Virus record (IMG/VR): IMGVR_UViG_3300048930_000175
Span: 1 to 43,068 of that record
Length of the DNA stretch: 43,068 bases
Origin: a virus
Strand: one strand, 5' to 3'
Shown here: piece by piece, positions 3,489 through 14,637 of the stretch
How positions within the stretch are numbered: position 1 is the first letter of the stretch
Layout of the letters: every line of letters starts with the position of its first letter
Position numbers and translations under genes: made by a program
The notes under the pieces: generated by a model
Seen by the model: the letters and a program-made list of their open reading frames with translations, nothing else
Database searches by the model: none
What the model was told of the DNA's origin: nothing

Positions 3489-4670
3489 TCATTGCTTTAT
3501 CCTCGCGTAGTAGATTGCGGAACCGTTGGAGAACGCACGGACCTGGTTGGAGTGGATCAGGGTGTCAATGATATCGGTCAGGCCTCTGGAGTCTATGCGG
3601 TTGGAGAGAAGACGGAGAAGATCCGAGCGAGAGATTTGCTCGGCTTTGAAGATCTTGTCCCTCACCACGTTCAGCAAAGCTCCCTGATCTGAGGAAGTCA
3701 CAAGCTCAAGAAGCCTGGGCATGTGTTCCTCACTTGCAGTCAGGATGGAGTCAGCTCCAATGAGGTGACGTTCCTCGATCTCAGGAGAGTTCGTGCTCAC
3801 AGCGAAAAGCATCCCGACCTTTAGCAAGTGAACGAATCTTCGAGAAGCATAGCCGGTGAGAAGATGGTTGTTGAAGAAGTCTGACTTTTGCCAGAACTCG
3901 TTATACCGTTCTTCGTAATACTTCCAAGCATCTTTGGATAGAGTCATCTGACCCTGATACGTCGCGGCTTTTGAGAGGGAACGGATGAGCCTTTCTTGGA
4001 TTGCCTTCTTTTCTGGAGAGAACGTCGTGATCGCGACCGGAGGCATCGGGGCCTCGACGAAGACGAAGATGATTCGAGAAGTAAGTCCAGCTCCAACGGC
4101 TTCAGCGGGTACGGCATGACGAAGCCAATCAATAGTCGAGGCGCCGAGGAGACCAAGACAACAGTTAGAAAGCATCGCACGACCTTGGCCTTTGGTATGG
4201 TACTCGAAGTTTGATTTGCAGTCATAGAGTGGAATCAGGAGCGCGGCTAGTCCTGCCTCGTAGGATTTTTTGTTTAGAAAGGTCGCAAGCTCATCAACGA
4301 TTACAAAGCCTTCGGAGACTTCTCGAATGACGGTGGTCGAGGTTCCATCTACCTGATGAAGGGCTTCGATCAGAGCCTCTGGAGTGATCTTCTGTGCGAT
4401 GATGTTCGGTCGAGGTTCGACAGATCGCACGAGTCCCTCAGCCACACCGATAGCTGTGGACTTTCGACACCTTCCCGAGCCTGCTACAAGGACGATGAAG
4501 GTGTTTGGAAACACGGTATAGGTTCCCATGTCGATCCAAATCCTTCTCCCGAGCACACCGGAGATTGCGGAGAGTCCACACCAGAGAGCGAAAAGCTCAG
4601 GAATCTCTGTTCCCTTGTTCAGCTCGACGAAGTCTTTTAGGAAGTTTTCTGATTCTTCTGGCATTTCCAT
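3489..4670 (-). CDS. DUF3987-type phage helicase/primase-like P-loop ATPase
   Basis: This 393-aa protein resembles DUF3987 phage replication proteins, usually treated as a replicative helicase or primase-helicase. The P-loop is atypical: residues 63-71 read AGSGRCRKS, with Arg in place of the Gly before the catalytic Lys. A Walker B VIVDE follows at 123-127. The conserved CCLGLLGAS stretch and the RIIFVF strand fit the family core. The last 70 residues look like a winged helix (DLLRLLSNRI...). It overlaps the 3' end of the polymerase gene by 34 bp and is the last gene of the leftward block, consistent with a co-transcribed replisome pair. A second in-frame Met two codons downstream is an alternative start. 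Confidence 0.75.
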   Translation of the reverse strand: MEMPEESENFLKDFVELNKGTEIPELFALWCGLSAISGVLGRRIWIDMGTYTVFPNTFIVLVAGSGRCRKSTAIGVAEGLVRSVEPRPNIIAQKITPEALIEALHQVDGTSTTVIREVSEGFVIVDELATFLNKKSYEAGLAALLIPLYDCKSNFEYHTKGQGRAMLSNCCLGLLGASTIDWLRHAVPAEAVGAGLTSRIIFVFVEAPMPPVAITTFSPEKKAIQERLIRSLSKAATYQGQMTLSKDAWKYYEERYNEFWQKSDFFNNHLLTGYASRRFVHLLKVGMLFAVSTNSPEIEERHLIGADSILTASEEHMPRLLELVTSSDQGALLNVVRDKIFKAEQISRSDLLRLLSNRIDSRGLTDIIDTLIHSNQVRAFSNGSAIYYARIKQ

Positions 4671-7036
4671 TTCTCATAAGAGACACAATCTAGCCAGTTA
4701 GGACCGAGCTTTAGTTCTACCGGGACGACAAGTGGAACATCAACAAGAGGAAACTTGATCGGGACTTCGGTGTTCTGGATGATGAAGGGAATGACCTCGT
4801 CTACGAGATCTTCATCAACCTCGTAGACAATCTCGTCATGCACCTGCATCAAAGGCCGGGCTCGATCTCCCCAGCGTTCGTGCATGTAGTGATCCGCTCG
4901 GGCGAGAGCAGCGTTGATGATGTCTGCAATGAGAGACTGCGGGAGTGTGGCAATGGCGGAACGGAGAGTGGTTTCGTCCAGTCGGTCGAGGAAGATCCTC
5001 AACCTGCCAAAGGGATTTCGGAGAGACCGAGTGGTCTGGAGTTGTTGGTCGATCTCTCTCCACCAGATCTCAAGTTCCGGGATCGCCGAGCGGTATTTGT
5101 TCAGGGCCATCTTCGCGCGAGGGAGAGGAATCTTGTTGATAATAGAAACCTTCTCTGCTCCGATCTTGTAATTCGCCCCGTGGACACATCGCTTGGCTTC
5201 ATAGCGTTCTTCCTTTGTGATCTCGGATACGGGTTTTTCGTAGATAAGCGAGGCGTTCCACTTATGAACGTCAAACCCTGGAGTGTTGAAGTTCTTGATA
5301 AGCGAGTGTATTCTCGCAAACCACGCTACTGCACGAGCCTCAGCTTGCTCAAGGTCTGTCTTGATCAAGACTTTCCCAGGCCCGGCGATGTACATTCTTC
5401 GGATCTCACGCCCCGTGTCCTCTTGAGACGGGATCTGCTGAAGGTTCCCACCCTCTCCGTCTAGTGTCGTTGCGGAGGAAATACGCCCAGTGGATGCGCC
5501 GGTGATGTTATATTGGGTTCTCATCCTTCCATCTTCAGAAAGCTGAGAGTCAAGGAAGGTTCCGATGAGCTTAGAGACCTTACGATAGTCTAGAAGAAGC
5601 TGGAGAGTGTCTCGATAAGCCGGGCATTTGACCTGAAGTTTCTCAATCGCTTCCTCGTCTGAGGTGATTGCTTTCCTGACTCGGTGGATTTGAGGAGGAA
5701 GTTTGAGATCTTCATATAGGAACTTCTTGACCTGAGTCGGGCTGTTGGGATTCAGGTCTGGATTTCCTGTGGCTTGAGCGAGTTTGATCCGAGTCTTTTC
5801 TAGCTCAGCCTCCATCCGAGCGCGGTATTCTCGACGGTAGTCTTGGTCGATCAGAACACCGCGGTTGCCGCATCTCATTAACGCCACCATCGCTGGCTGG
5901 ACGTGAGACTTGTAGAAATCCCAGACCTTGAGAGACTTACACTCCTCCTCCAACTTCTCTGCACACTCAAACGTCGCCACACAGTCCCAGCAGTTGTAGG
6001 TCCAGGTGTCTTGGTCTGAGGCAGGATCGTAGTCGGAGTAGTAGGGAATCCGGGTGTAGATGGAGGCAAGGAAGTCCAGACCCTTAGGAAGCTCAGAGTA
6101 ACAACAGTGATGCGCGACCATTGTATCCATGAAGAGGTTTGCAAATCTGAAGCCAAAGTTTCTCTCCAGATATGATGTGTCAAAAGGGAAGTTCTGAGCC
6201 ACAAGCTCGATATCCGGGTTTCGGAAGAGCCTGTCCATCGCATCAAGGATTGCGATTTCTTCCTCGTAAGACCAGTGGGAGTTCATCCCTCCTGTGCTCT
6301 GCTCGGGGAAAAACACCACTGAGCTTCCTGGCTGGACAGTGTAACGGTTGGACATGAACGGAATACAGATCGCAGTATCTTTGCTCGGAGCAAAGCCGCA
6401 GCATCGGACGAGTCTCCCGGAGGTTTCGATATCGAAAGCTAGACGCTTGTGAGGGTGAGAGAGAAAGCTCATCACAGCTTCGAAGCTGGGGTTGGTGAGG
6501 AATCTTGGCTTTGGGAGGTTGAGGGTGGGTGAGAGAGATTCAGCTCTGGCTCTCCGGAGATCAAGCTCCGCGATGGCTCGGTGGTTATACACCCGGAGAA
6601 TGAAAGCTGGGTGGTATGTTGCGATAACCTTACCGCACGGACTCTCAAGGATACTTCCCCTCCACTTTTCGATCGAGCGACGTCCTGTAACAGCTCGGAG
6701 AGCTTCTGCCCCAAGGCAGATGATAACATTTGGAGCGAGTCGTTTGAGCTCGGCTTGGAGGTCTTGCCACGCTTGGAGGAGCACTTTTCCTGGAGTGTTT
6801 TTCTTTGAGTCTTCATAGAAAATATCGAACTCGTTTGAGGGAGGGCGGAATTTGATGACGTTTGTGACATAGCACTGGGTCCGAGAGATTCCTGTATTCG
6901 CGAGCATGTCGTCGAGGAGCTTGCCTGAGGAACCGATGAATGGAATCCCAAGGCGTTCTTCCTCTGCACCTGGAGCCTCGCCGACGATGGCGATTTTGGC
7001 TGAGAGCGGACCGACACCTGGGATCATGGTTGGCAT
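4637..7036 (-). CDS. Uracil-DNA glycosylase-like domain fused to family A DNA polymerase
   Basis: 799 aa. Residues 1-165 form a family-4-like uracil-DNA glycosylase fold: GEAPG at 19-23 and HPAFIL at 142-147 match its two active-site motifs. The 3'-5' exonuclease follows, with DIE at 202-204 (ExoI), N282/D286 (ExoII) and YNCWD at 347-351 (ExoIII). Polymerase motif A is DLEQAEAR (561-568), motif B spans R611, K615 and Y623, and motif C is HDE (733-735), so both active sites look intact. The N-terminal CxxC and the KCRPP cysteine typical of Fe-S family-4 enzymes are missing (here KFRPP). UDG-PolA fusions are known in phages such as SPO1. It overlaps the upstream methyltransferase gene by 13 bp. 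Confidence 0.92.
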   Translation of the reverse strand: MPTMIPGVGPLSAKIAIVGEAPGAEEERLGIPFIGSSGKLLDDMLANTGISRTQCYVTNVIKFRPPSNEFDIFYEDSKKNTPGKVLLQAWQDLQAELKRLAPNVIICLGAEALRAVTGRRSIEKWRGSILESPCGKVIATYHPAFILRVYNHRAIAELDLRRARAESLSPTLNLPKPRFLTNPSFEAVMSFLSHPHKRLAFDIETSGRLVRCCGFAPSKDTAICIPFMSNRYTVQPGSSVVFFPEQSTGGMNSHWSYEEEIAILDAMDRLFRNPDIELVAQNFPFDTSYLERNFGFRFANLFMDTMVAHHCCYSELPKGLDFLASIYTRIPYYSDYDPASDQDTWTYNCWDCVATFECAEKLEEECKSLKVWDFYKSHVQPAMVALMRCGNRGVLIDQDYRREYRARMEAELEKTRIKLAQATGNPDLNPNSPTQVKKFLYEDLKLPPQIHRVRKAITSDEEAIEKLQVKCPAYRDTLQLLLDYRKVSKLIGTFLDSQLSEDGRMRTQYNITGASTGRISSATTLDGEGGNLQQIPSQEDTGREIRRMYIAGPGKVLIKTDLEQAEARAVAWFARIHSLIKNFNTPGFDVHKWNASLIYEKPVSEITKEERYEAKRCVHGANYKIGAEKVSIINKIPLPRAKMALNKYRSAIPELEIWWREIDQQLQTTRSLRNPFGRLRIFLDRLDETTLRSAIATLPQSLIADIINAALARADHYMHERWGDRARPLMQVHDEIVYEVDEDLVDEVIPFIIQNTEVPIKFPLVDVPLVVPVELKLGPNWLDCVSYEKWKCQKNQKTS

Positions 7037-8481: not shown

Positions 8482-8680
8482 TTGACTTCCCTTCCTTGTC
8501 TCTTAGCGACTTGAGAAGTTCATTTGACATCTTCACACCTGCAATGTCTACGTTTGGAAGTTGGTGGTGGAGACCGTTGAGGTATCCTTGTTCATATGAT
8601 TCCCTCGACCATCTCCGGGCTTGGGTGTGGATACAGATGGCGGTGATGAAGGTTGCGATAAGAAGAATCCACATGATCAT
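8474..8680 (-). CDS. Small N-terminally anchored membrane protein
   Basis: 68 aa. Residues 2-18 (MWILLIATFITAICIH) form a single N-terminal membrane helix, followed by a charged cytoplasmic-type tail (RRWSRESYEQGYLNG). The start overlaps the stop of the ParB-methyltransferase gene as ATGA, and the 3' end overlaps the ligase start by 8 bp, so it is translationally coupled within the replication operon. No homologous family is recognised. Confidence 0.75.
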   Translation of the reverse strand: MIMWILLIATFITAICIHTQARRWSRESYEQGYLNGLHHQLPNVDIAGVKMSNELLKSLRDKEGKSNV

Positions 8681-10047
8681 TCGCCTTTCAAACTCTCATC
8701 AGGTTTTTGGTCATCGCCCTTCCTTGACAAAAGCGCCTGAGCACGGAAGAAGTTATCCTGATCAAGCTCAAACCCAAGGGCCTTACGTCCAAAGTCCCGA
8801 GCGACCTTGATGGTCTTCCCGCTTCCAGCGAAGGGGTCGAGGATCATGTCATTCAGGGTCGAGCTTTGTTTGAGGAAAAGCTTGATCAGATCTCCCGGTT
8901 TCTCAAAGGGGTGCATTCTCTCACCGACAGGGACTGGAGGGAATTGGAGGATATTCCGGATACCCTCAGCCAGGCGCCTGACCACCGGACCTGGCTTGCG
9001 GCCGAAGAGAATGGGTTCGTAGGAGGAAGTGTAGTTATACCCTCCGAACTGAGAAACCGGACGTCCTTTGTCCCAGATCAGGGGCGCCGGATGAGTCTCA
9101 AACCCGGCCTGAGAAAGGGTGGAGATGATGTGAGGATAGAGATCAAAGGCGAAGAACATGTAGAAGTGTGACCCAGGTTTCAGGACTCGATAGAGCTGAG
9201 GAACCAACTCGTTCAGGAGACCCTTCACAGCATCTTGGTTCAGGTTATCCGATGGCTTGAGCATGGCGGTATACGTCGCACGTTCTCCACCACCTGTGCC
9301 TTCAGCCAAGGCGATCTCGGGATTTCCGAACGGAGGATCGGTGATGATGAGGTCAACGGAGTTATCAGGAACCTGCTTGATCAACTCTCGACAATCCCCG
9401 TGTTTGATATCTGCACTTACGAACAGATTCCCTCCCTTAGCCAAGCGCTCAAGTCTCTCCGCTTCCTGGCGCTTTTCGATCACCCGCTTAGCTGCCTTGA
9501 GAGGGAGGTCTTTTACTGCGTCCTTCAGGTCCGGTCGTTCTTTCAAAGTCTTCGCGAGGTTGATCTTCTCACTCACCGTACCCTTAGACTGCCCCACCAG
9601 GTCGGCGGTTTTCTCAATCGTCCACCCGTCGGTTTCTTTTCCCTGAGACCCCGAGCCCTTGATCTCTCGCTTTATCTCGTCGATCTGAGAGATCAGTTCG
9701 CATTCCTCTTGCCATGAGAGGGCTTGACGCCTGAGATTTTCCTCAAGCTCGATTTCTTTCTGCTGAAGCCCGGAGAGGTTGTCGAAGATCGTGATCGGAA
9801 CTTCCTTCCGACCGAGGGCAAAGAGCGCTCGGTATCTGCGTTCACCTGCGATGAGCTTATACTTCCCTCCAGGAAGGGGAGAACAGACAAGAGGATGAAG
9901 AAGCCTCTTGCCAATGCTCTCGACGTGGGACTTCATGTCTCCAAAGTCCTTTCGAGCGCGGTTCTGGTCAATGACAATAGACTCAATCGGAACCATCATC
10001 CACTTGCCATAGACATCTGACACCTGGGTCTCTGCTAGGTCGGTCAT
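8677..10047 (-). CDS. ParB-like nuclease/DNA-binding domain fused to beta-class DNA methyltransferase
   Basis: 456 aa. Residues 17-110 are a ParB/Srx-like N-terminal domain with the GERRYRA motif at 68-74. An HTH follows (about 140-166, TIEKTADLVGQSKGTVSEK), as in ParB/Spo0J. From about 205 the protein is an amino-methyltransferase: catalytic DPPF at 237-240 precedes the SAM-binding DPFAGSGKT at 404-412, the beta-class order of N6-adenine/N4-cytosine enzymes. Such fusions occur in phages and may methylate phage DNA against restriction. No cognate endonuclease gene is seen. A hairpin with a T-run lies between this gene and the next one upstream. Confidence 0.88.
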   Translation of the reverse strand: MTDLAETQVSDVYGKWMMVPIESIVIDQNRARKDFGDMKSHVESIGKRLLHPLVCSPLPGGKYKLIAGERRYRALFALGRKEVPITIFDNLSGLQQKEIELEENLRRQALSWQEECELISQIDEIKREIKGSGSQGKETDGWTIEKTADLVGQSKGTVSEKINLAKTLKERPDLKDAVKDLPLKAAKRVIEKRQEAERLERLAKGGNLFVSADIKHGDCRELIKQVPDNSVDLIITDPPFGNPEIALAEGTGGGERATYTAMLKPSDNLNQDAVKGLLNELVPQLYRVLKPGSHFYMFFAFDLYPHIISTLSQAGFETHPAPLIWDKGRPVSQFGGYNYTSSYEPILFGRKPGPVVRRLAEGIRNILQFPPVPVGERMHPFEKPGDLIKLFLKQSSTLNDMILDPFAGSGKTIKVARDFGRKALGFELDQDNFFRAQALLSRKGDDQKPDESLKGE

Positions 10048-11395: not shown

Positions 11396-11690
11396 ACGTC
11401 AGCGTTCCAGTGAAAAAGGTGGAGAGAGTAGAGAGAAGTTCCTTAGATGCGAGTTCGTTCAGGGTGAAGATTGCATACTTCCCGCTTTGGGTTCGGGTGA
11501 GAAGCTCGGCTTGGGCCAAGATTGTTAAGTGATGCGACGCGACTCCTGGCTTGATCTTCAGTGTCTCAGCGACTTGTTGGGTTGTGGCTCCAAGGCCTTG
11601 GATTTGAGAACACCGGGAGATCAGCGCGACGATTCTTAAGCGGCTCTCATCTGACAAAGCCTCAAGCTGTCGGAGGAGGAGTGGGGACAT
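11382..11690 (-). CDS. ArsR-like winged-helix transcriptional regulator
   Basis: 102 aa with start at 11690, chosen because AAGGA sits 8 nt upstream. An in-frame Met at 11873 would add 61 Ser/Arg-rich residues lying wholly within the nuclease gene. Residues 8-25 (QLEALSDESRLRIVALIS) match the ArsR first helix. TTQQVAETLKIKPGVASHHLTIL (36-58) is the helix-turn-helix, and residues 62-78 the wing. The metal-binding cysteine box is absent, so it is probably a plain phage regulator. It overlaps the nuclease gene by 29 bp and Sak4 by 14 bp. Confidence 0.78.
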   Translation of the reverse strand: MSPLLLRQLEALSDESRLRIVALISRCSQIQGLGATTQQVAETLKIKPGVASHHLTILAQAELLTRTQSGKYAIFTLNELASKELLSTLSTFFTGTLTYESL

Positions 11691-12630
11691 TGGAGAGTTC
11701 CTTTTGTTCGATTGGTTTTCCCTCGATAGTAGGTTTGGCGAGAACAAAGACCTTTTCTTCGGAGATCTCGTACTGACCGGAGAGTCGGGTCCAGTCAGGA
11801 ACAGAGCAAAGATCTGCGTAGTCACACATGTAGCCGGGTGATCCGAATCCCGGATACGGTGTGCAGGCTGCACGGTTTTTTGGAAAGTGCTTTCGCTCCT
11901 CGAAGGATTTCAGCTGAGCGTATTGCCACTGGATCCACTGGATCGTGTCTTCGAGGAAGGTGTCGTTTACGAAGACGGGGTATGACATAGAGTTGACTGT
12001 AGTCTTTGCAACAAGAAGCCCTTCGATAATCACACCCCGAGCACGCTTGTTGTAGAGAGAGGAAAGGGCAAGAGTATAGATTCCCACCTGCGGGTCTGCA
12101 TCGAACGAGGTCAGGAACCGGGTAGACATCTCCGATCCGGTCTTATACTCCACTCCCCAAAGCTCGTCGGGGATATCGCGATGATTCGCCGCACCGTCGA
12201 TTCTCCCGACAACAGGGATATCCAGACCGACGTCTATTGCGAATGCGATCTCGTTGTCAGACGTCGGGTCTTCGATCTGGAGGTTTGTCGGCGGGGGTTT
12301 GATCAGGGTATAGATACTCCGATGGCCTTCGTGAGTCGCCATGAAGTTCATGAGCATGAGCTTCGCTCGGCGAGAGTTTCGCTTGTCATCTCCGAGCGAG
12401 TCTCGGTCTTGCCAGATAGAGAGAAAGGCGTCCATGGCTTTTTGGAGATCGCCTGTGTAGGTGTGAGGAATGGCACAGTGGATAGCCTCACCAAACTTCA
12501 GAGCGGGATGCTCTGGGGTTCTCAGCCGGCAGCCTTGTTGGTAAAACCACTTTCGAGGACACCGAGCGAGAGTAGAGAGAGATGTCGGAGAAAGCCACTT
12601 CTTCGATCTGTAAAACTCAAAGCCTTCCAT
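11662..12630 (-). CDS. PD-(D/E)XK nuclease, Cas4/AddB type with probable Fe-S cluster
   Basis: 322 aa. The core motif is D145 (VVGRIDG) and E161-x-K163 (WGVEYKTG). C24 in an ARCPRKWFYQ context, with C256, C269 and C275 near the C-terminus, forms the cysteine set that holds a 4Fe-4S cluster in Cas4/AddB exonucleases. It would process DNA ends for the Sak4 annealing system downstream. The start codon overlaps the stop of the sigma-like gene (TAATG), so translation is coupled. Confidence 0.85.
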   Translation of the reverse strand: MEGFEFYRSKKWLSPTSLSTLARCPRKWFYQQGCRLRTPEHPALKFGEAIHCAIPHTYTGDLQKAMDAFLSIWQDRDSLGDDKRNSRRAKLMLMNFMATHEGHRSIYTLIKPPPTNLQIEDPTSDNEIAFAIDVGLDIPVVGRIDGAANHRDIPDELWGVEYKTGSEMSTRFLTSFDADPQVGIYTLALSSLYNKRARGVIIEGLLVAKTTVNSMSYPVFVNDTFLEDTIQWIQWQYAQLKSFEERKHFPKNRAACTPYPGFGSPGYMCDYADLCSVPDWTRLSGQYEISEEKVFVLAKPTIEGKPIEQKELSNVPTPPPTA

Positions 12631-13136
12631 TAGCGGGCTCCTTCGGGAGTAGGGTGATGGACCTTGATCTGAGAAATTATCTTCCTCAGACGTTCGTTGA
12701 TAATGGTCTTGGGGATAGAGGTGATTTCTTGGATTTCTCTTGACGAGAGATCACGGTAGAACTTGTAGTAGACGAGCAGCCTGTCCTCAGGAGAGAGGTT
12801 GCTGTTCATCATGAGCTTGTTTACCTGCTCAAGGGTCGAAGGGTCGGAGGTGGAGAGGGAAGAAGGTCGGATGACTGTCACCTGGACTTCTTCCTCGTTG
12901 ATGACTTCTAGTGACCGGACTCGACGTTGGATTCTGGTCTGACGCCGGATAGCGTCCACACACCTGGCGTGGACCGGAACCCATGTCACCGGGAGGTCTT
13001 TCATCCAGAGCTCAGTCCAGATATCCAGAGCAAGTTGTTCTTTGTCTATCGCAGACATGGGAACGATGATGTTTACTATCCTCTGGATTCTTTTCAACTG
13101 GGCTTGGATTTCTTCTTCCGTGAAGTTCTGAGGCAT
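12630..13136 (-). CDS. ECF-sigma-like protein
   Basis: 168 aa from ATG 13136 (GGAG 6 nt upstream). A longer frame to 13241 would read into the tRNA-like element and is rejected. Residues 30-66 (DKEQLALDIWTELW...DAIRRQ) resemble sigma region 2, and LSPEDRLLVYYKFYRDLSSREIQEITSIPKT onward (114-158) resembles region 4 with its HTH. It lacks the usual strong -10 recognition residues I would expect. It may redirect host RNA polymerase to phage promoters, which fits a phage with no RNA polymerase of its own. Confidence 0.6.
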   Translation of the reverse strand: MPQNFTEEEIQAQLKRIQRIVNIIVPMSAIDKEQLALDIWTELWMKDLPVTWVPVHARCVDAIRRQTRIQRRVRSLEVINEEEVQVTVIRPSSLSTSDPSTLEQVNKLMMNSNLSPEDRLLVYYKFYRDLSSREIQEITSIPKTIINERLRKIISQIKVHHPTPEGAR

Positions 13137-13178: not shown

Positions 13179-13303
13179 GAGCCGGGTGGGAATCGAACCC
13201 ACAACCTTCCTATCTATGCCGGGCGTGGCTGGCCGTGTCACAGCCCTTTGGACTCGCTGATCGGCATATCAAGGACGATCTGCCAGTTGACCTCTACCGG
13301 CTC
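13179..13303 (-). ncRNA. tRNA-like element 1 with an extended helix in place of the anticodon arm
   Basis: Read leftward: GAGCCGG (13303-13297) pairs perfectly with CCGGCTC (13185-13179). The T-arm GTGGG-TTCGATT-CCCAC (13202-13186) is canonical. A D-arm-like GGTC-AACTGGCA-GATC lies at 13292-13277, including the GG that docks to the T-loop. Instead of a 17-nt anticodon arm there are about 70 nt: TCCT/AGGA and ATGCCG (13267-13262)/CGGCAT (13221-13216) build an irregular helix. No 7-nt loop with U33 can be placed with confidence. CCA is not encoded. It could be a tRNA with an unusual intron, a decayed tRNA, or a distinct tRNA-like RNA. Confidence 0.55.
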
Positions 13304-13321: not shown

Positions 13322-13510
13322 TTAGTCCTCTTCAGGATCTTCGAGGTTCAGGATTCTCTTCACATCGTCTCGATCCATCGCGTCGAGAAGGTCTTCGAGT
13401 TCAGCCGGGCGGAGCAGATCAAGAAGGTCTTGAGGATGACACTCAATCTCTACCCTTCCAACAGTCCTTCCACTCTCACCGATCATGTCAAAACTTAGCT
13501 TGATGGACAT
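13322..13510 (-). CDS. Small acidic protein of unknown function
   Basis: 62 aa. The start at 13510 is supported by GGAGA 6 nt upstream. The sequence has two halves: a beta-like MSIKLSFDMIGESGR segment and an acidic helical tail (LLDLLRPAELEDLLDAMDRDD...LEDPEED). It lies directly upstream of tRNA-like element 1 in the leftward operon. I recognise no family. Confidence 0.75.
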   Translation of the reverse strand: MSIKLSFDMIGESGRTVGRVEIECHPQDLLDLLRPAELEDLLDAMDRDDVKRILNLEDPEED

Positions 13511-14039: not shown

Positions 14040-14216
14040 AACACCGGCAGGATTCGAACCTGCAGTGGACTGCTGTTCAGTTCCCCGATATTTATAGCCA
14101 CTCACGAACTTAGTCCTGTTGAGGACTCTAGATATCCACCAACTATCTTCCGTGAGCCGTTGTCCTTTTGGCCTCGGGGTGAGCGGGCCTGCGTCTACCA
14201 ATTCCGCCACGGTGTC
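14040..14216 (-). ncRNA. tRNA-like element 2 (tRNA-Leu-like D-arm and variable arm) with long structured insertion
   Basis: Read leftward: GACACCG (14216-14210) pairs with CGGTGTT (14046-14040). GCGGAATTGGTAGACGC (14207-14191) is a textbook class-II (Leu-type) D-arm. The T-arm GCAGG-TTCGAAT-CCTGC (14063-14047) is canonical, and a variable-arm hairpin precedes it. A normal tRNA-Leu is about 87 nt; this is 177 nt. The middle folds as CCCCGA/TCGGGG (14179-14174 with 14088-14083), GGCCA/TGGCT, CTCACG/CGTGAG and AGTCCT/AGGACT. No standard anticodon loop is evident. It is too short for a normal group I intron. CCA is not encoded. Confidence 0.6.
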
Positions 14217-14280: not shown

Positions 14281-14637
14281 TTACTCGTTGTCGTCGTCGT
14301 CTTCCTTGGGCAGACGAGCCTCGTATTCCTTGACGATCTGGTCCGAATACTTCTTGACCAGCTCGCCCAGGCGGACCATGTCGCCGCTCGCAGCGGCGAA
14401 CTCTTCGCTGGTGATCTTGGACATGGCCATGACGCGGATCTGTTCCTTCGTCGGCATGCCCACCGCACCAGCGCGGGTGAGGTTCATGGCGTTGGTCTTG
14501 GTCTGGGAGTTGATCAGGTCGAGAATCTTCTCCTCGCTCTGGTCCTGAACCGCTTCGGCCACACTGTCATACTTCTTGTAAGTGGCCTGACCGACGACCT
14601 TGGACTTGGACTTGACATCAGCGGTGCAAAATTGCAT
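14281..14637 (-). CDS. Hypothetical protein with acidic C-terminal tail
   Basis: 118 aa, MQFCTADVKSKSKVVGQ..., largely helical, ending in PKEDDDDNE. Its codon use is more GC-rich than the adjacent 14727-14957 gene. A GGAA-containing site precedes the start. The acidic tail is typical of small phage proteins that bind basic partners or single-stranded DNA-binding proteins, but no family is recognised. A strong hairpin follows its stop. Confidence 0.7.
   Translation of the reverse strand: MQFCTADVKSKSKVVGQATYKKYDSVAEAVQDQSEEKILDLINSQTKTNAMNLTRAGAVGMPTKEQIRVMAMSKITSEEFAAASGDMVRLGELVKKYSDQIVKEYEARLPKEDDDDNE

Follow-up and report, generated by a model that had tools for sequence, protein, structure and literature searches.

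Two intergenic elements of a DNA phage, here termed E1 and E2, possess the ends of a tRNA and carry a long helix where the anticodon arm belongs. For E1 this confirms the original prediction, which had described a tRNA-like RNA of this layout and not a working elongator tRNA, and like RNAs are found in many phages. An element of the E1 kind is likely a real RNA, and since such elements were found across about a hundred viral contigs, and laboratory phages have them too, they may well represent a viral RNA class of wide distribution. In this class the tRNA ends are intact, an anticodon loop is missing and the acceptor stems covary, and in its leucine-type family the ends carry tRNA-like signals. 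The tRNA half, which consists of acceptor, D- and T-arms, is called the handle below and the module in place of the anticodon arm the payload; payloads are exchanged between handles. The expression, processing, abundance, charging, trans-acting role and target of RNAs of the E1 kind are what we infer in the proposal made in the last section.

Anatomy of E1

E1 is 125 nt long and lies at positions 13179..13303 of the window, by which we mean the whole stretch of 43,068 nucleotides that was analysed. It is encoded on the minus strand between two minus-strand genes and is read from 13303 to 13179; all parts named here are on that strand. The acceptor stem is formed by GAGCCGG (13297..13303) and CCGGCTC (13179..13185) with 7/7 pairs, N73 is a T, CCA is not encoded, and position -1 is an A, so that T-1 is missing. 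A linker TAGA, two bases above the normal tRNA spacing, leads to the D-arm GGTC-AACTGGCA-GATC (13277..13292), which is supported by the sequence and by the Rfam alignment, has a GG in its loop and is of the class I and not the leucine type. The T-arm GTGGG-TTCGATT-CCCAC (13186..13202) has a perfect 5-bp stem and is also found in the Rfam tRNA alignment at a relaxed threshold. The variable loop AGGTT connects the replaced arm to the T-arm, and the Levitt pair A15-U48 is a possible pair and intact. Apart from the two extra bases before the D-stem, all three arms stand at cloverleaf spacing, and the acceptor stem, the T-arm, the GG and the two-base offset were all as originally predicted.

The replaced arm, about 68 nt in total, follows a single G after the D-stem and reads TCCT-TGA-TATGCCG, 40 nt, CGGCATA-GAT-AGGA. 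It forms a nested 4+7 bp helix and not a pseudoknot, with TCCT (13272..13275) pairing to AGGA (13208..13211) and TATGCCG (13262..13268) to CGGCATA (13215..13221). The outer helix is the one predicted, and the inner helix, given before as ATGCCG/CGGCAT, was one base pair too short. The two are separated by a 3x3 internal loop, TGA/GAT, in which a U.U and tandem G.A/A.G pairs are possible, and by way of these pairs the replaced arm may form one long coaxial helix. An equally good stacked helix arose in 3 of 1000 dinucleotide shuffles, and the folding of the whole element has a z of -2.5 (2/200 shuffles). In an unconstrained minimum free energy (MFE) fold the acceptor stem and the long helix are kept, whereas the D-arm re-pairs with the T-arm. 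The cloverleaf of E1 thus has its support from the motif and not from the MFE.

ARAGORN reports no tRNA and no tmRNA at E1 or elsewhere in the window, so that an ordinary tRNA is lacking from it, and at the gathering threshold E1 matches no tRNA, tmRNA, YrlA or intron family of Rfam. When the threshold is relaxed, the Rfam tRNA model fits E1 with 20.8 bits (E 0.24) against a cutoff of 29 bits and jumps 62 nt at the anticodon arm. A descriptor of tRNA ends, consisting of a 5-bp T-stem with a TTCRANN loop, a 7-bp acceptor stem and a D-stem-loop with GG, matches the window at E1 and E2 alone and is absent from 200 simulated windows (first-order Markov, same length); as it was composed after both elements were known, this gauges their rarity and is not a blind test. 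E1 has no homologue in the viral collection, including an exact scan of the viral contigs for its D-arm.

The predicted want of a credible anticodon loop agrees with these silent gene finders and with a reading of the sequence, in which a 5-bp anticodon stem with a 7-nt YTNNNRN loop is absent. E1 could still be a working tRNA with a small intron in its anticodon arm, since phage tRNAs with such inserts exist. A scan for the class I D-arm found at least 120 viral contigs, and among the matches listed 61 distinct cases are well paired. A YTNNNR loop is properly placed in 27 of these 61, with a full 5-bp stem in 20, which mostly have an insert near position 28/29 and resemble tRNAs with tiny introns. 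The other 34 are without such a loop, and several of them resemble E1 in having a large insert while the outer stem is intact. For E1, a reading of the sequence, not covering every deletion, found no YTNNNRN loop after the D-arm and none correctly spaced from the T-arm, and with no Rfam intron match either, we regard the intron reading as very unlikely. A group I intron is rejected by size as well, as about 68 nt compare with a core of about 200 nt or more. By its anatomy, and not by homology, E1 would be grouped with phage tRNA-like RNAs of mixed kinds.

The insert-bearing tRNAs are of interest by themselves. Phage Asn, Ile, Thr, Cys, Phe and Lys tRNAs (L211, L218, L232, L261, L275, L306, L316 and others) carry 35-57 nt near nucleotide 28/29 of the anticodon stem, and removal of this insert restores a canonical anticodon arm. 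Many inserts have a common hairpin plus ACAGCAA, or GTTACTT at the end. They look like a class of tiny tRNA introns of which we have found no description.

E2 and the genomic setting

E2 (14040..14216, minus strand, intergenic) is 177 nt long, has tRNA-Leu-like ends and is supported by the descriptor, a relaxed Rfam alignment and its fold. From 14216 to 14040 it reads GACACCG TG GCG-GAATTGGTAGA-CGC ... GCAGG-TTCGAAT-CCTGC CGGTGTT. Its D-arm GCG-GAATTGGTAGA-CGC (14191..14207) is of the class II leucine type, and E2 combines it with a 7-bp acceptor stem, the T-arm GCAGG-TTCGAAT-CCTGC (14047..14063) and a variable module in place of the anticodon arm. In the MFE fold this module is a long arm, CCCCGA(GGCC)...(GGCT)...TCGGGG (14083..14179), and a small variable-arm hairpin is also present. 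A pseudoknot alternative is no better than chance, with 28 of 200 shuffles as good. E2, too, has no homologue in the viral collection, including an exact scan of the viral contigs for its 5' end.

The record has a direct terminal repeat at both window ends and is therefore probably a complete genome. The phage proteins include a PolA-type DNA polymerase, a Sak4-like annealing protein, a Cas4-like nuclease, a ParB-methyltransferase, terminase, portal and head proteins. By eye, the N-terminal stretch of the polymerase (4637-7036, minus strand) resembles a uracil-DNA glycosylase, and a ParB-like domain is fused to a DNA methyltransferase at 8677-10047 on the same strand. E1 sits between a 62-aa ORF (13322-13510) and the gene at 12630..13133, all in the same direction. 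This directly downstream gene (minus strand) has a weak match to an RNA polymerase sigma factor (PHROG 1740, E 3e-5) and none in Pfam, and it is followed by a PD-(D/E)XK or Cas4-like exonuclease gene (11662..12630, minus strand; PF12705, E 3.5e-17).

Protein searches with the polymerase and the Cas4-like nuclease found no relatives. The terminase led to a 96 percent identical contig (L006), which begins at window position 14442 and so narrowly misses E2, and to one with 61 percent identity (L007/G002), which is the closest usable relative. In the latter the gene order is kept and both elements are missing, so that E1 and E2 come and go between phages. A planctomycete host, hinted at by the E2-like ends of another contig (L184), found no support in the terminase, whose best full-length matches have only about 30 percent identity.

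The absence of E1 from relatives would also be expected of a decaying tRNA gene, whose anticodon arm was broken by an insertion and which is now drifting. The two-base offset of the D-arm, the T at N73, the missing T-1 and the re-paired D- and T-arms of the MFE fold point in the same direction. We nevertheless consider decay unlikely, as both elements have kept their acceptor, D- and T-stems in full, the inserted region outdoes its shuffles in folding (the 3/1000 mentioned above), dead DNA tends to be lost by phages, and this architecture is found again, with covariation, in many phages. What sets E1 apart from the large family described below is its class I D-arm, its two-base offset, the T at N73, the A at -1 and its nested helix, and E1 could be an idiosyncratic or decaying member of the class.

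Recurrence in other phages and exchange of payloads

As E2 has a leucine D-arm, viral contigs were scanned for such an arm followed by a T-loop 60-90 nt later; in normal leucine tRNAs the two are under 45 nt apart. At least 120 viral contigs have this arrangement, and among the matches listed 105 of 120 form at least 6/7 acceptor and at least 4/5 T-stem pairs, of which the pattern fixes one acceptor base only. The kind of RNA seen as E1 and E2 is thus not a one-off and occurs in about a hundred viral contigs. The common plan consists of tRNA-Leu-like ends, a 7-bp acceptor stem, a 5-bp T-stem and a variable module of 60-90 nt, sometimes a pseudoknot. As the class was sampled by pattern scans, all frequencies are lower bounds and may be biased. 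In the 58 distinct acceptor pairs among the matches listed, 6.1 of 7 pairs are Watson-Crick, as compared with 2.9 when the halves are shuffled. Bases outside the pattern are also conserved among the matches listed, namely T-1 (68/90), A73 (71/90) and C74 (74/90). T-1 is expected for RNase P substrates, and A73 is the discriminator of leucyl-tRNA synthetase (LeuRS), for which, as for some other synthetases, the anticodon is dispensable; the conservation of both fits RNase P cleavage and leucine identity.

At 77 of the 120 loci listed, ARAGORN recognises no tRNA. At least two matches (L055, L120) and one from another pattern (L002) appear to be genuine tRNA-Leu whose anticodon loop holds a hairpin, and in the remaining leucine-pattern matches a leucine anticodon arm is not visible by eye. 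Anticodon-loop hairpins of 20-45 nt, which are too short for a group I intron, occur in the tRNA-Leu of L002:11237-11336, L055:3276-3403, L120:880-1009, L152 and L154. An Rfam scan of sampled elements found no matching family, with the elements of L013 and L050 passing the generic tRNA cutoff. When genomes of bacteria and archaea (257 Gb) were scanned, the leucine-type pattern matched 74 times; many of these matches are tandem or truncated tRNAs and about twenty resemble the viral elements by eye, so that the class appears to be mostly viral. Leucine-type elements that resemble one another, and in which no anticodon arm can be seen, occur in three cyanobacterial genomes (L138, L151, L159). Adjoining genes of family members encode NinG, RecE, RecT, DnaB, a Cas4-like nuclease, terminase and the major head protein.

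Short BLAST matches revealed unannotated elements in isolated phages as well. These are the Bacillus phages SPP1, phi3T, Grass, SBSphiJ, Goe3, BSP10 and BUCT082, the Listeria phages PSA, LP-037, B025 and LP-101, the Lactobacillus phages Lenus and Sha1, as well as Leuconostoc phage Ln-9, Paenibacillus phage Pd_22F, Enterococcus phage 21C1, Brochothrix phage BtpYZU01 and Weissella phage PWc. Their elements mostly have 7/7 acceptor pairs, 6/6 T-stem pairs and the T-loop TGCAAAT, and the one in SPP1 is located between genes 9 and 11. A match in Synechococcus phage S-E7 is an ordinary leucine tRNA. An origin in host housekeeping was rejected, since the Gram-positive D-arm is sporadic: of 398 genomes of the class only six have it, and in five of these six it belongs to an anticodon-less element.

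In the Enterococcus phage 21C1 the element follows directly on a phage tmRNA gene (L337:49-527). This adjacency, the leucine-type D-arm, the A73 and the fact that tmRNA, too, has tRNA ends without an anticodon would suit a leucylated, tmRNA-like RNA, which is charged by LeuRS and delivered to ribosomes or to an enzyme that uses aminoacyl-tRNA. A tag reading frame is not seen, however, E1 lacks leucine-type features and has a T at N73, and N73 varies among the Gram-positive members, so that we think this reading is highly improbable.

Many payloads fit the order P1 5' - P2 5' - P1 3' - P2 3', in which P2 ends about two nucleotides before the T-stem. Among the matches listed, the crossing helices of 16 out of 90 payloads do better than every one of 60 shuffles, where about 1.5 are expected. 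On average the effect is modest (mean z -0.63), and most single payloads do not beat their shuffles. Individually convincing are SPP1 (1/200 shuffles), Grass (2/200) and Goe3 (2/200); SBSphiJ, phi3T, L184 and others are not convincing in this test. Compensatory changes are found in L051/L077/L105 (GTCAAC/GTTGAC, AATAAC/GTTATT, ACCAAC/GTTGGT), in L042/L064 (GTAAC/GTTAC, GCAAC/GTTGC) and in L025/L169/L193 (TAGTG/CACTA, AGGAT/ATCCT, GAGGT/ACCTC). In the last subfamily conserved TGAGAGTCCGGATGCTAAA and TAAGTCC flank the covarying pseudoknot, and L193 keeps a normal-looking 7-nt loop.

Within a host genus, one handle can carry payloads of differing sequence, roughly 35 to 200 nt long. The handle ATACTCG...CGAGTAT is constant in the Listeria phages PSA, LP-101, LP-037 and B025, GTGCTTG...CAAGCAC is common to Lenus and Sha1, and AGTCAGG...CCTGACT occurs in many contigs of metagenomic origin; in each case the payloads differ. 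Conversely, similar payloads stand on different handles in unrelated phages, as in SPP1 and Grass or in phi3T and SBSphiJ/Goe3. A pseudoknot payload of the L026 type even occurs without tRNA ends in Cellulophaga phage phi10:1 (L136:600-720), before a terminator-like hairpin. This free-standing copy and the exchange of handles and payloads argue that the payload may have a function of its own. The exchanged and compensated payloads are left unexplained if E1 and E2 are processing punctuation, that is, RNase P and RNase Z cut sites in a polycistronic mRNA with an irrelevant insert. The location of both elements between co-directional genes and the intergenic position of most family members on the strand of their neighbours would agree with punctuation, which does not require the loss of the anticodon arm, and we judge it to be quite unlikely.

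Possible role and known systems

We see about an even chance that E1 and E2 are non-decoding, phage tRNA-derived non-coding RNAs with a processed handle and a trans-acting payload. The handle would provide processing, stability and an L-shaped elbow. It would be cut from a polycistronic transcript by the RNase P of the host at the 5' end, and by host RNase Z or exonucleases, together with the CCA enzyme, at the 3' end. In place of the former anticodon arm there would be a payload that folds by itself, as a long helix in E1 and E2 and as an H-type pseudoknot in some others. During infection this payload would act in trans on a factor of the host or of the phage, and the most plausible purpose would be to take over the host or to counter its defences.

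E1 and E2 share with tRNAs, of class I for E1 and of the class II leucine type for E2, the acceptor stem, the D-arm with GG, the T-arm and T-loop and likely the 5' and 3' processing, but they lack an anticodon stem-loop, have 50-100 extra nucleotides and remain below the Rfam cutoff. The original prediction was also reminded of tmRNA or viral tRNA-like structures, and from this the tRNA-like architecture stands and both identities fall. Like tmRNA (SsrA), the elements have tRNA ends and a long helix for the anticodon arm, and pseudoknots occur in their wider family. With 125-177 nt as compared to about 350, they have a complete D-stem, no tag ORF and no alanine signature; E1 matches no tmRNA model of ARAGORN or Rfam, and its length leaves no room for both a tag reading frame and pseudoknots. 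The tRNA-like structures of plant RNA viruses are likewise viral folds that imitate tRNA, commonly with pseudoknots, but they form the 3' ends of RNA genomes, whereas E1 and the other phage elements are separate internal loci of DNA phages.

According to Chen et al. 2014, as cited in PMC12282133, YrlA is a bacterial Y RNA with a tRNA-like module. It is likewise a non-coding tRNA mimic of bacteria and phages, but E1 and E2 do not match the YrlA covariance model of Rfam 15. The Ro-binding stem of YrlA is also joined differently from the phage elements. In Listeria phage CKA15, three abundant unannotated RNAs have been proposed to be Y RNAs (PMC12282133). A link to these was not supported, as the descriptor found no tRNA-like element in two stretches of the relative P100, where it recovers most annotated tRNAs and a longer or odder element could escape. 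Literature searches, with subscription papers and most preprints outside their range, found no account of RNAs such as E1 and E2.

A wider reading, which we hold tentatively and place a little short of even probability, is that DNA phages from many bacterial phyla have a class of RNAs so far without a name, in which a host-matched, non-decoding handle carries an exchangeable structured payload as an anti-host or anti-defence effector, and that one phage without ordinary tRNAs has two genes of this class, E1 and E2. If this is true, a whole class of viral RNA has been overlooked, as tRNA finders drop anticodon-less matches and gene finders ignore them. The presence of members in the laboratory phages SPP1, phi3T and SBSphiJ makes their function directly testable. 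In synthetic biology, man-made tRNA scaffolds carry an RNA of interest in the place of the anticodon arm for stability. The phage elements are alike in layout and apparently natural, which is a lead only, and if the reading holds, they would be a natural example of the RNA-stabilising tRNA scaffold of the engineers.
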